From an uncultured Eubacteriales bacterium (lineage in GTDB: Bacteria > Bacillota > Clostridia > Oscillospirales > Oscillospiraceae): a stretch of DNA of 34,932 nucleotides. The notes below the pieces were generated by a model that worked only from the letters and a program-made list of their open reading frames with translations, was not told the DNA's origin and did no database searches. Location of the stretch: the NCBI GenBank assembly GCA_900319275.1, contig ONNS01000021.1, positions 1 through 34,932 of the forward strand, written 5' to 3'. A program made the translations under genes and the position numbers. Within the stretch, counting starts at the first letter, position 1. The number at the start of each line of letters is the position of its first letter. Of the stretch, positions 19,244 through 23,318 are shown piece by piece.

Positions 19244-19519
19244 ATGGCAAGTACCGTATTCGTGAACGACGCGAGAGTCATGGCTAAGGGTCAGGTCACC
19301 ATTCCGAAAAATGTCCGCGCTGCCCTCGGGGTCGATAGCGGCGACCGTGTTACCTTCATCGTGGACGGAACTAATGTGCGCGTGGTTAACTCTGCCGTAT
19401 ATGCCCTGATGCGCTTTCAGGAGCAGATGAGCGGTGAGGCTGAGAAGGTTGGCCTGCTTAAAGAAGAAGCTGTTGCAGAATGGATCACGCAATCTCGCCG
19501 CGAGGATAATGCCGAATGA
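19244..19519 (+). CDS. AbrB/MazE-type antitoxin
   Basis: A 91-residue protein whose N-terminal half is a SpoVT/AbrB-type swapped-hairpin DNA-binding domain (AKGQVTIPKNVRAALGVDSGDRV is the signature). The C-terminal half is a helical, acidic tail that would bind the toxin. It should repress its own operon and neutralise the PIN toxin encoded by the next gene, whose ATG overlaps this stop codon (ATGA). A GTG at 19226 is in frame, but GGAGG sits 7 nt before the ATG at 19244, which is taken as start. The downstream toxin reading frame is broken, so this antitoxin may now be an orphan. Confidence 0.85.
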   Translation: MASTVFVNDARVMAKGQVTIPKNVRAALGVDSGDRVTFIVDGTNVRVVNSAVYALMRFQEQMSGEAEKVGLLKEEAVAEWITQSRREDNAE

Positions 19520-19917
19520 GGATAATGATCGACACCAACATCTTCATCTCTGCTGCACTCTTTCCGAAAGGACGTGCTGCAGAAGCTCTGTACAAGGCAT
19601 TGGTAGCTCCGTATCAGCCTGTAGTCTGCGATTATGTAATCGATGAGTTGCATCGGAAGTTCCGAGAATAGTTCCCGGACTGCACTGTTGAGCTTGAAGC
19701 ATTTCTCTACACAGCGCTGCCCGCTTTTGACATCGTTCCCACTCCGGAAGAGGCAGTTGAGGCTGAGACAAAAATCCGCGATCCAAAGGATCGTCCAATT
19801 CTCCGTGCCGCCCTCGATGCAGGTGCTGATTTGTTCCTCACCGGTGACAAGGACTTTCTTGAATCCACCGTAAAGGACCCGCGCATTATTAGCGTTCAGG
19901 CATTTCTCGATATGTGA
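19516..19917 (+). pseudogene. PIN-domain toxin (VapC-like) interrupted by an in-frame TAG
   Basis: The frame begins MRIMIDTNIFISAALFP, a typical PIN ribonuclease start with the first catalytic Asp, and continues through DYVIDELHRKFRE. A TAG at codon 52 (19669-19671) follows. The same frame then runs on without a gap as FPDCTVELEAF, KIRDPKDRPILRAALDAGAD, LFLTGDKDFL and ends at a TGA after 134 codons. Those later segments hold the remaining PIN acidic residues, so the truncated 51-residue product should be inactive. A single base change (from AAG, CAG or similar) explains it. It is coupled to the antitoxin by an ATGA overlap. A read error cannot be excluded. Confidence 0.8.
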
Positions 19918-20035
19918 TTGAGCAGCCATCGCAAGGTAACTGTTCTTCATATATGACCAAAAGAGCCGGACTGCCCGCTTGGTTGCAAAAACGCAATATT
20001 GCGCAAAATGAAGGGTTGGTGGATGTGAGGCTGAT

Positions 20036-20482
20036 TTGGCTTCCGGGAGCAGTATTGCAACAAGATTAGAAACTCACAGACGGGCAGAATATCCCGGCTC
20101 GAAGGCCGTGCTGGTAGCGATCGCGATTCCTACATTTACATCTCAGTTAGAGAAAGCGCGTGAAGGCACAGATGCAGCTAATATCCGTTCTAAGTATGCT
20201 GAAGTTATGACCCAAATTCTTACAGATAATCAGAGCGCAATTACTGCCAGTTACGATGTTGTCCTTTCTCAAACAGTTGATGGTTGGCAGAACAAGGATA
20301 TTAAGGAAAGCCTCGGAAAGCTGGCACAGGCTGGAAATGCTACCACAGGCGAACTGAAGGTTGATGTTTCTGCTATTGTCGCTGATAATGTCGGATTAAA
20401 AGGAAAGAAAGTTCAGTTTGCTTATGCCCTTGCTGCTACGTCAGATCCCGCAACCCTGATACTTAGTCTTGCGGATGCGTGA
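20036..20482 (+). pseudogene. Headless type IV pilin fragment
   Basis: From about 20105 the frame reads AVLVAIAIPTFTSQLEKAREGTDAANIRSKYAEVMTQ, which matches the intact prepilin at 20685-21098 from the middle of its N-terminal helix onward. It then has its own C-terminal domain of about 100 residues with no cysteines, ending ILSLADA. The leader (basic head, Gly, Phe methylation site and first half of the helix) is missing and replaced by unrelated sequence. The only in-frame start is a TTG at 20036 without a ribosome binding site. It cannot be processed by prepilin peptidase as it stands. The fragment has lower GC than most neighbours. It is either a decayed gene or a promoterless cassette. 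Confidence 0.7.
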
Positions 20483-20684: not shown

Positions 20685-21098
20685 TTATGACTGTACGAAG
20701 GTGATTTCAACCTTTGCAGGATTGGTTCCATCTGCTGGAGTGTAAGTTACGGTTGCGGTCTTTCCAGCCTTCGGAGTGTTTGTGACAGTCGGATCAATGT
20801 GATCGCCACCACTGATGGTTCCAGCACCGCCAAGATTAGGAGTAGGACTGGTCTGCCAGCCGTCTTCTTTCTGCTGCAGGGTAACGGTTTCAGTAATAGT
20901 AGCACTTGCTTCAGTGCTCGTGAGGGCTTTGGTCATGACTTCGGCGTATGCAGAGCGGATGTTGGCAGCGTCGGTAGCCTCACGGGCCTTCTCGAGCTGG
21001 GCCGTGAACACGGGGATAGCAATAGCGACGAGGACGGCGATGATCGCAACGACGATCAGGAGCTCAGCAAGGGTAAAACCACGATTGTTCTTTTTCAA
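20685..21098 (-). CDS. Type IV prepilin / major pilin-like protein
   Basis: A 137-residue prepilin. The leader MKKNNRG is cut before the methylated Phe in GFTLAELLIVVAIIAVLVAIAIP, the classic type IV N-terminal helix with Glu at mature position 5. The helix continues as QLEKAREATDAANIRSAYAEVMTKAL. The C-terminal about 75 residues form a small, Thr/Gly-rich domain without cysteines. The start is a TTG with GGAGGA 7 nt upstream. It would be inserted in the membrane and assembled by pilus machinery, none of which is in this window. Convergent to it lies a truncated paralogue. The leader has two overlapping hairpins (21126-21154 and 21152-21182). Confidence 0.9.
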   Translation of the reverse strand: MKKNNRGFTLAELLIVVAIIAVLVAIAIPVFTAQLEKAREATDAANIRSAYAEVMTKALTSTEASATITETVTLQQKEDGWQTSPTPNLGGAGTISGGDHIDPTVTNTPKAGKTATVTYTPADGTNPAKVEITFVQS

Positions 21099-21544: not shown

Positions 21545-22459
21545 TCAGCCGACTCGCGGTCTGGCCGCTTCGATGCCCAGGCGGGACAGCTTTTCGACCT
21601 TGTCGGCAGGTAGCTTTCCCTCGGCCATATTTTGACGCTGCGTGCCGATCCAGCCGCTCATCGAGCGTCCGTCCGGGCTTCTCATGCCGCGCGGCCATAG
21701 TGGGAGACGCTGATTCTTCTCGCAATAGGCGGCGATGCAGCGGTACATGCTCTCCCAGGCCTCGCCGCGCTCGGCGGTCGGTTCCCAGATCATGCCGATG
21801 CTGTTGAGGCGGTCGACCTGGCCCTGCGTCAGGGTCTGGCCCGGCTTGCGGCCCATGTAGATATCGCGCTGTTTATAGATCCAGTAGCCCAGCTTGCCGC
21901 CGTCGGGCGTCAGCTCGTCGAGACGGACCATCAGATGGCCGTGCGCGCGGTAGTAGTCTTCCGCGTCGGCAAACCAGTCGTCCCAGCTGCGCGGCTTTGT
22001 CTTCAGACGCCAGTTCACGCCGCGAGCCTCCAGCGCCTTGATTTCGCGCTCGGTCAACTTTCCGGCGGCATAACGCAGGCGCTGCTTGACCAGCCAGTCG
22101 CCGAGACCCGCGCCGCCGCACTCATACTCGTGCGGCACGTCGATATTGCCGTGTTCCGTGGCGTAGGCGTCCAGCAGGGACAGCCATTCCTCCCAGCAGC
22201 GCCGGGTTTCCAGCTTCCAAACCATGCCGATCTGCTCGAGATACGCGATCTGCACGGCGTCAAGCGCGCCGTTGATGCTTGCGACACGGTTATACTTTGC
22301 GCGCTGCCGCTCGATCCAACGGCCAAGCTTTTCCCCCGCGGGGCAGACATAGTCCTTCGGGATCAGCAGATCTCCGTGTTCCTCATAGTAGCGCTCAGCC
22401 AGCAGATACCATTCCTCCCAGTCCATGGCATTCCGCCGCATCCTTTTATTTTTCGGCAC
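21545..22459 (-). CDS. Stand-alone protein of four helicase-associated (HA) domains
   Basis: About 304 residues made of four tandem repeats of some 70 residues, each with the pattern of the PF03457 helicase-associated domain: W-x-x-W/M near the start (DWEEWYLLAERYYEEHG, CWEEWLSLLDAYATEHG, SWDDWFADAEDYYRAHG, AWESMYRCIAAYCEKNQ), then LGxWIxxQR and a closing LxxIGMxW. No helicase, nuclease or other domain is attached. HA repeats are presumed nucleic-acid binding because of their place in helicases. The start is taken as GTG at 22459, with AGGAGAGG upstream, rather than the ATG at 22483. A candidate invertible promoter begins 75 bp upstream. Function unknown; a regulator is a guess. Confidence 0.8.
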   Translation of the reverse strand: MPKNKRMRRNAMDWEEWYLLAERYYEEHGDLLIPKDYVCPAGEKLGRWIERQRAKYNRVASINGALDAVQIAYLEQIGMVWKLETRRCWEEWLSLLDAYATEHGNIDVPHEYECGGAGLGDWLVKQRLRYAAGKLTEREIKALEARGVNWRLKTKPRSWDDWFADAEDYYRAHGHLMVRLDELTPDGGKLGYWIYKQRDIYMGRKPGQTLTQGQVDRLNSIGMIWEPTAERGEAWESMYRCIAAYCEKNQRLPLWPRGMRSPDGRSMSGWIGTQRQNMAEGKLPADKVEKLSRLGIEAARPRVG

Positions 22460-22533
22460 GGTGCAAACCTCTCCTTCCGGCACAGGCTGCTCAAACGGAT
22501 TGAGCCGGTACTGTCAGCGGGTCTGCAAATGTT

Positions 22534-22687
22534 AAAATGTGTACATTTTTGGAATCTCGGCTATTAATGCCATACCTATCCAATTCTTCGTGAAAAGCTT
22601 TGAATATTGTATTGATTTTCAATACGAGCTGTGCTATAATGACTGTGAACAAATAAGAAAAGATGGGTCTCAAAATGTACACATTTT
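22534..22687. promoter_or_regulatory. Candidate invertible promoter segment with inverted recombination sites
   Basis: Left site AAAATGT-GT-ACATTTT (22534-22549) and right site AAAATGT-AC-ACATTTT (22672-22687) have identical perfect half-sites and complementary central dinucleotides, so they are in inverted orientation. Serine recombinases exchange strands at just such a 2-bp centre within a dyad. The 122 bp between them hold one strong promoter. A serine recombinase gene ends 20 bp to the right, and the HA-domain gene starts 75 bp to the left, reading leftward. Inversion would place the -10 box at about 22581-22586 facing that gene. Activity has not been shown. Confidence 0.6.
22612..22640 (+). 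promoter_or_regulatory. Sigma-A promoter inside the inverted-repeat segment
   Basis: TTGATT, 17 bp, TATAAT with a TGC extension directly before the -10 box. The -35 box is covered by the small dyad GTATTGA-TTT-TCAATAC (22610-22626), a possible operator. In the present orientation transcription would begin near 22647 and run into a hairpin after about 16 nt. Confidence 0.75.
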
Positions 22688-22696
22688 GAGACCCAT
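22663..22696. terminator. Bidirectional terminator containing the right recombination site
   Basis: 16-bp perfect arms ATGGGTCTCAAAATGT and complement around the central AC. The plus strand continues TTATTGTTTTTTAT, and the minus strand continues CTTTTCTTATTT. It can end both the short promoter transcript and the recombinase message, and its core is the right-hand dyad site. Confidence 0.75.
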
Positions 22697-22706
22697 TTAT
22701 TGTTTT

Positions 22707-23318
22707 TTATACTTTTTCATACTCTTTTACGCGATGATAAAAGGTCGACCGTGCGACGCCGCAGGCTGCGGCAGCTTCGCCGGCGCTGATCGCGCCCCCC
22801 TTCCATTGCTCATACACCTCCCGAAAATTGTCCGGCATGGGCCGCGGCGGACGCCCGAAGCGAACGCCGCGCGCCTTGGCCGCCGCGATCCCCTCGGCCT
22901 GGCGCTGACGAATGTTTGTTCTTTCATTCTCTGCGACAAAGGAGAGGACCTGCAGTACAATATCGCTGAGAAAGGTGCCAACCAGATCTTTACCCCTCCG
23001 CGTATCCAGCAGCGGCATATCCAGTACGCAGATGTCCACGCCCTTGTCTTTCGTGAGTGCGCGCCATTCATGCTGGATCGCTTCATAGTTTCTGCCCAGA
23101 CGGTCGATGCTCTTGATAAATAGCAGATCGTCTTTTTTCATTTTTCGCAGCATTTTCTTGTATTGCGGACGCGCAAAATCCTTGCCGGACTGCTTGTCCA
23201 GAAAGATATTGCCTGCCGGAACACCGGCCTTGCGCATGGCGATCATCTGCCGGTCCTCGTTTTGTTCTTTGGTACTGACCCGTACATAGCCGTAAACCGT
23301 ACCCGGAATACCGATCAT
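22707..23318 (-). CDS. Serine recombinase, Hin/Pin/resolvase type
   Basis: A 203-residue small serine recombinase. The catalytic Ser is in YGYVRVSTKEQ (S15), the nearby arginines in SIDRLGRN, and the long linker helix runs through VLSFVAENERTNIRQRQAEGI. A C-terminal helix-turn-helix follows (ISAGEAAAACGVARSTFYHRV) after the GRPPRP hinge typical of invertases and resolvases. Size fits site-specific invertases rather than large integrases. The annotated ATG is immediately next to AGGAG, which is tight, so the true initiation codon may lie a few residues inside. No transposase partner is seen. Its 3' end is 20 bp from the candidate inverted sites, which suggests that it acts there. Confidence 0.9.
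   Translation of the reverse strand: MIGIPGTVYGYVRVSTKEQNEDRQMIAMRKAGVPAGNIFLDKQSGKDFARPQYKKMLRKMKKDDLLFIKSIDRLGRNYEAIQHEWRALTKDKGVDICVLDMPLLDTRRGKDLVGTFLSDIVLQVLSFVAENERTNIRQRQAEGIAAAKARGVRFGRPPRPMPDNFREVYEQWKGGAISAGEAAAACGVARSTFYHRVKEYEKV

Follow-up and report, generated by a model that had tools for sequence, protein, structure and literature searches.

Apparent inversion of a 138-base promoter segment by a small serine recombinase: a proposed switch for an HA-repeat gene and, probably, for the pilin-like gene behind it

We examined a stretch of 34,932 nucleotides from an uncultured Eubacteriales bacterium of the Oscillospiraceae (contig ONNS01000021.1), referred to here as the window. It contains genes for a presumed DNA invertase, a stand-alone HA-repeat protein and a pilin-like protein, with two dyads and a promoter between the first two genes (Table 1). 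The recombinase and HA genes lie on one strand, the recombinase first. The recombinase has the PF00239 catalytic domain, the serine and arginine motifs and the length of about 200 aa that characterize small serine recombinases, and its reading frame is intact, with the catalytic motifs YVRVS, DRLGR and ER. Judged by E values against solved structures, its closest kin are resolvases and not the Hin/Gin group of invertases: Tn552 Bin3/Sin (3.8e-29) and gamma-delta (6e-22) ranked ahead of chains named DNA-invertase (8e-16). In a sample of 200 genomes of the family, 107 had a match to the recombinase when weak matches were counted; in a sample of 61 from the genus, 37 did.

Table 1. Features of the recombinase, HA and pilin-like region of the window.
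Feature	Positions	Strand	Remarks
Small serine recombinase, presumed invertase	22707..23318	-	203 aa; PF00239, E 5.6e-28
Terminator-like hairpin and T-run around site R, OFF orientation	22661..22708	+	Also scores on -
Recombination site R, recombinase side (probable extent)	22667..22692	.	Core dyad 22672-22687; + strand centre AC at 22679-22680; exact inverse of left dyad
Invertible segment between central dinucleotides	22543..22678	.	Centre-to-centre 138 bp; orthologous segments occur both ways round
Promoter TTGATT-17-TGC-TATAAT	22612..22640	+	Points at end of recombinase gene, the OFF state
Recombination site G, gene side (probable extent)	22529..22554	.	Core dyad 22534-22549; + strand centre GT at 22541-22542
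Stand-alone HA-repeat gene, first target	21545..22459	-	PF03457 x4, E 1.1e-58; GTG start; ORF-caller start 22483
Pilin-like gene, probable second target	20685..21098	-	PF07963, N-terminal methylation motif

An earlier note on this DNA, made from the sequence alone, had described the dyads as mutually inverted sites with identical half-sites and the centres GT and AC. This description holds exactly, as AAAATGT-GT-ACATTTT on the gene side and AAAATGT-AC-ACATTTT on the recombinase side are reverse complements of each other without a mismatch. When up to two mismatches were allowed, the dyad pattern matched the window at just these two places (0.03 matches expected). Exact matches in the source genome (3.04 Mb) were likewise confined to them, and a control pattern gave 0. 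The exact pattern was present in 9 of 200 family genomes including the source genome, the other eight having single matches. Alignment of sites from relatives showed a near-palindromic dyad within a conserved extent of about 26 bp, so the window sites probably span the 26-bp intervals of Table 1. Outside the core, they deviate from the family consensus. The recombinase stop codon lies 19 bp from the right dyad, close to the 20 bp first given. A comparison of the window's intergenic DNA with plasmids gave no match, and an Rfam search found nothing.

Four promoter-like sites were listed in the 3-kb region, with 1.4 expected by chance. The one between the dyads shared the highest match count and, of the two tied, is the one with the TG extension. 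As the note had stated, this strong promoter points right, away from the HA gene and into a terminator. The window thus presents a promoter between inverse recombination sites, as an inverton does, and the source assembly contains it in one orientation, OFF. Alignment of orthologues favoured GTG 22457-22459 over the ORF-caller GTG at 22483 as the HA start. With this start the distance to the left dyad is the 75 bp proposed before, and the scan listed nothing terminator-like between the left site and the start.

The HA gene gave no Pfam domain besides its four HA stretches at E 0.001. AlphaFold modelled the protein as three-helix repeats (pLDDT 80, pTM 0.33). Foldseek returned no match to this model at E 0.001 or better, and a profile search gave one weak match, 2kta, a 'putative helicase' (E 0.00064). 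HA orthologues were found in 5 genomes at 60-78% identity. HA matches occurred in 14 of 102 genus genomes, four of them orthologues (62-78% identity), and another genus supplied an orthologue at about 61% (G178). Behind the HA gene stands a pilin-like gene, both in the window and in each of the five relatives that were compared (L230, L231, L232, L233 and L141). In G280 and G288 it starts about 80 bp past the end of the HA match, and HA may share a transcript with it. By eye, the window also contains a second pilin-like coding stretch that lacks its start and runs in the other direction from the full gene (20100-20482, +), perhaps a silent or decayed cassette, and an AbrB-like/PIN-like toxin-antitoxin pair (19246-19918, +) whose second frame seems to be interrupted by a stop. 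A close pilin homologue occurs in the same genus on contig C3 of G174 (L160, L234), and neither HA nor a recombinase of the same type was found beside it.

Comparison with related genomes for a flipped segment, a check proposed in the note, revealed the reversed state at two loci. At the HA locus, the switch is OFF in the window, G233 and G280 and ON in G288 and G289, where the promoters face HA; that flipping would turn the promoter toward this gene, as predicted, is supported by sequence. The segments of G280 (OFF) and G288 (ON) are 82% identical when one is reversed and 53% when compared directly (best of 100 shuffles, 53%), and the two genomes have common flanks. The other OFF/ON HA pairs were 54-62% identical reversed versus 45-52% direct, and pairs in like states leaned the opposite way. 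By our own reading, the inner half-sites of G280 and G288 agree at 23 of 24 positions when swapped and at 21 of 24 in place, so these half-sites by themselves hardly tell the direction of crossover; the segment does. The promoter of these two genomes has a weak -35 element (TTGCGT), and a stricter scan misses it. The second locus came first in a pairwise comparison of 70 segments: L044 (OFF) is 86 and 84% identical to L050 and L055 (both ON) when reversed, and 48 and 50% when read directly. Its flanks and downstream gene of 1057 aa align without reversal, and this target is unrelated to HA. Both orientations therefore exist between related genomes.

Some HA loci were less complete. The G289 recombinase is on another contig, and the same repeat sequence stands on both flanks; the assembly is thus probably broken there, and the repeat explains the contig break better. 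In G178, the recombinase is about 1.9 kb from HA with an opposite-strand gene between them, and only one weak, decayed site was found. Another G233 contig (recombinase 61%) was considered as completing the HA switch and was rejected; by eye, C178 ends inside a recombinase-like frame beside an R site of its own.

To place the window among relatives, we collected recombinase copies from the family sample and from a scan of named genomes, which confirmed at least 580 relatives and from which the best 80 were kept. The resulting 110 loci (L011-L120) gave 100 distinct copies once identical and short ones were dropped, and for 87 of these the sequence continued for 250 bp or more past the stop codon. 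GTGTAC within 150 bp of the stop, followed 50-250 bp further on by GTACAC, was present in 54 of the 87, with 0.18 expected from shuffles. Among the same 87 copies, the reverse order occurred once, the same orientation three times and a pair upstream of the gene never. A larger set (L011-L120, L142-L159, L168-L186 and L230-L233) comprised 135 distinct copies, of which 116 had 260 bp or more of sequence past the stop. Using a score matrix trained on aligned sites, we recognised modules beside 76 of the 135 copies; no site pair was recognised in 59, and 19 of the 135 have less than 260 bp below the stop. The order is recombinase, site, promoter segment (mostly 113-148 bp), inverse site, gene; at L071, HA is the gene that adjoins the switch. 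Culturable carriers of the module include Agathobaculum desmolans ATCC 43058 (L059) and Merdimonas faecis BR31 (L055). Modules of this type also lie on viral-classed contigs (L144, L145 and L150), which suggests phages as possible carriers.

In all 76 modules, both sites had the same central dinucleotide (71 GT, 3 AT and 2 CT), the 71 GT pairs being partly selected by a matrix trained on GTGTAC sites. Since the matrix favours GT, it is the AT and CT pairs that carry information, and matched pairs of this kind are what a recombinase needing identical overlaps would leave. An AT centre is self-complementary, so directionality should be lost at the variant sites that have one (L025, L096 and L253). 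The promoter faced the recombinase (OFF) in 44 of the 76 modules and the gene (ON) in 17, with 15 unclear. For the first 70 modules the counts were 42, 15 and 13, versus 9, 5 and 56 in one shuffled set. Of 100 copies, 13 had a contig end less than about 250 bp below the recombinase and 2 had one that close above it (Fisher p 0.005); for a limit of 1000 bp the counts were 15 versus 8. This excess fits mixed orientations in the sequenced populations as supporting evidence only, repeats being another possible cause.

The positions of the sites and the promoter are also constrained. Centre-to-centre distances between sites fell at 94, 105, 113-116, 127-128, 134-139 and 147-148 bp, with one each at 203 and 241; the steps are roughly the size of a helical turn, and 45 of the 76 modules share the spacing class of the window (138 bp). 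Phase concentration, calculated over the 73 spacings that fall within 100-150 bp, was 0.79 at 10.5 bp and reached its maximum of 0.82 at 11.0 (periods 9-13); jittering the spacings of whole clusters gave p of about 0.01 for this figure, which is post hoc. The spacing classes require 19 changes on the best recombinase tree, where 31 of 73 inner branches are weakly supported, and so do not reflect one frozen ancestor. In 49 of the 61 oriented modules, 43-47 bp separate the -10 box from the centre of the site that the promoter faces. Modules differ in length chiefly on the other side of the promoter, where the distances cluster near 47, 59, 69 and 79 bp.

The right dyad of the window forms the tip of a hairpin (22661-22698) followed by a T-run, and the structure is terminator-like on both strands, with -24.9 kcal/mol (z -6.57) for the + strand and -22.6 (z -6.78) for the - strand. 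Site G has no hairpin (-3.9, z 0.2). Because one hairpin arm lies inside the segment, the terminator exists in the OFF orientation only. The hairpin at R was accordingly stable in the OFF genomes G280 (-29.1 kcal/mol, z -8.9) and G233 (-26.1, z -7.6) versus the ON genome G288 (-6.8 kcal/mol, z -0.7). A scan found a 20-pair terminator at R in G280 and none in the G288 region. In G289, also ON, the value was -18.8 (z -1.4), the stem lying within the segment and not across the site. Across the 61 oriented modules, the OFF form of the R hairpin was the more stable in 41 and the less stable in 16 (sign test p 0.0013). The split was 31 versus 10 (p 0.0008) in the 44 modules found OFF and 10 versus 6 (p 0.17), a tendency only, in the 17 found ON. 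Site G hairpins did not differ significantly between the two forms in the same 61 modules. As the recombinase comes first on the strand that also carries HA, the OFF terminator would stop read-through from the recombinase as well as the outward promoter, and we propose that it blocks such read-through into the target.

Sites, promoter, both orientations of orthologous loci and the orientation-dependent hairpin can all be read in the DNA, and they point to a self-contained phase-variation switch, a reading to which we assign a probability of about 0.87. According to this model, binding of the serine recombinase at the two inverse sites, R and G, would lead to inversion of the 138-bp segment that they enclose. 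In the state seen in the window, the promoter would be aimed at the recombinase gene and the target would be OFF; after inversion, it would be aimed at the HA gene, maybe with the pilin-like gene on the same transcript. Site R would unite two complementary arms, of which one belongs to the chromosome and the other to the end of the segment downstream of the promoter. When the arms meet, in the OFF state, they would form a terminator that halts the outward promoter and should also halt recombinase read-through into the target. One inversion would then both dismantle the terminator and direct the promoter at the target. We infer catalysis by the window recombinase, expression of HA and pilin, and its phenotype from this arrangement. 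Overall, the switch described in the earlier note is supported as far as sequence reaches; the terminator arm and the pilin-like gene are refinements of it.

Could the sites serve another function? The dyads might be operators whose occupation by a dimer, the recombinase or some other, loops the DNA and represses the promoter, with no inversion taking place. Near-palindromic sites and spacing steps close to a helical turn would suit such a loop too. However, the segments between the sites occur reversed at two loci, and a non-palindromic centre is kept in opposite orientation, with CT variants paired, neither of which an operator requires. Operators conserved without the recombinase were named beforehand as an outcome that would count against a switch. 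Of 135 recombinase copies, 76 are accompanied by the dyads, and this association argues against a plain operator. We therefore regard looping as very unlikely. Still more improbable, in our judgement, is that the enzyme acts as a resolvase on sites for deletion or cointegrate resolution and that the promoter between them is incidental. The ranking of its solved relatives, with Sin/Tn552 Bin3 and the gamma-delta/Tn3 resolvases ahead of a DNA invertase, agrees with that idea, but core pairs are inverse in 54 of 87 copies and in the same orientation in 3 of 87, and 49 of 61 modules place the promoter alike with respect to the site it faces.

A different concern is that the switch worked in an ancestor and that the window copy is a relic frozen OFF. 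The single orientation in the source assembly would be expected of a relic, and so would sites that depart from the family consensus outside the core. Against this stand the intact recombinase frame with its catalytic motifs, sites that are exact inverses, and nearest orthologues found in both states, and we consider a frozen copy unlikely.

The targets of the modules vary. A target scan, with a picker covering the ON strand only, retained 61 of 70 picked ORFs after nine dubious picks were dropped. Among 25 of 64 families listed, the other targets included SLH (5 members), MmeI-like methylase (5), LRR_5 (4), OrfB_IS605 (3), PLD-like (3, being three loci of one target) and C5 methylase (2). The three OrfB_IS605 matches are TnpB-type genes behind the invertible promoter, assigned by eye to L035, L038 and L081. 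HA domains recur in these settings. Genes with helicase and HA domains (Pfam) stand behind recombinases of the same family in G258 and G257, and G280 has a helicase-HA gene, identified from an HA match and the start sequence only, behind such a recombinase on contig C1. G257 and G270 have an evident site pair, whereas none was convincingly found at the G258 and G280 C1 loci. The G270 HA frame has stop codons inside the match, and in G257 a sugar transferase gene comes after the helicase-HA gene. In G559, which is more distant, HA is preceded by a T2SSE gene (PF00437) and, by eye, by PilC- and PilD-like ORFs. At L246, L247 and L248, inspection by eye revealed a strong terminator-like hairpin in the leader between the recombinase and the helicase-HA gene, as if helicase-HA transcription might be attenuated.

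An invertible promoter is in itself an already known kind of switch. In the Hin flagellar switch, a serine recombinase likewise inverts a promoter at 26-bp-type sites with a 2-bp centre; there the recombinase gene lies inside the segment and two genes alternate, whereas here it lies outside a segment of about 138 bp. The recombinase of the cwpV switch of Clostridioides difficile was identified in later work as RecV, which is not of the resolvase type, in contrast to the PF00239 small serine recombinase described here. For the OFF-only terminator, cwpV is the nearest parallel: an intrinsic terminator is predicted in its OFF state only, which is true of the HA switches and a tendency across the family, but the cwpV promoter lies outside its 195-bp invertible segment, whereas the window promoter lies inside and changes together with the terminator (PMC2784873). 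The nearest enzymatic parallel is Mpi of Bacteroides fragilis, a serine recombinase of a gut anaerobe that inverts 13 regions with polysaccharide promoters and so resembles the present system in mode of inversion and in surface gene targets (PMC4747536). Mpi serves all 13 regions, whereas each module recognised here has its own recombinase beside it; the part of that report compared here mentions no terminator within a site, in contrast to site R as a terminator tip (PMC4747536). Inverton groups of Clostridia in the hCom2 survey likewise combine invertible segments with nearby invertases, the strongest link reported being with a tyrosine recombinase. The main text of the survey contains neither the word serine nor the word resolvase, and overlap with the present modules is possible (PMC11892184). 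A literature search by title and abstract, in which subscription papers were thinly covered, found neither a serine-recombinase promoter switch in Clostridia nor a switched HA-domain gene.

A broader reading, which we offer tentatively as falling a little short of an even chance, is that the module is a widespread Clostridia cassette in which a site doubles as a terminator tip, inversion both flips the promoter and makes or breaks a terminator that shields the target from the recombinase transcript, and the loop is very short and helically phased. HA proteins, alone or fused to helicases, would be recurrent first genes of switched pilus-like or polysaccharide-type operons, which they may regulate. 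The switch is compact and portable, consisting of one small recombinase, two 26-bp sites and one promoter, and it occurs in many Clostridia, where it stands before genes for surface proteins, restriction enzymes, helicases, TnpB-type proteins and pilus-like proteins. The lock formed by promoter and terminator and the helical phasing of the 138-bp loop are directly testable and relevant to recombinase research and the design of genetic switches. Phase variation in this poorly studied group becomes predictable from sequence.
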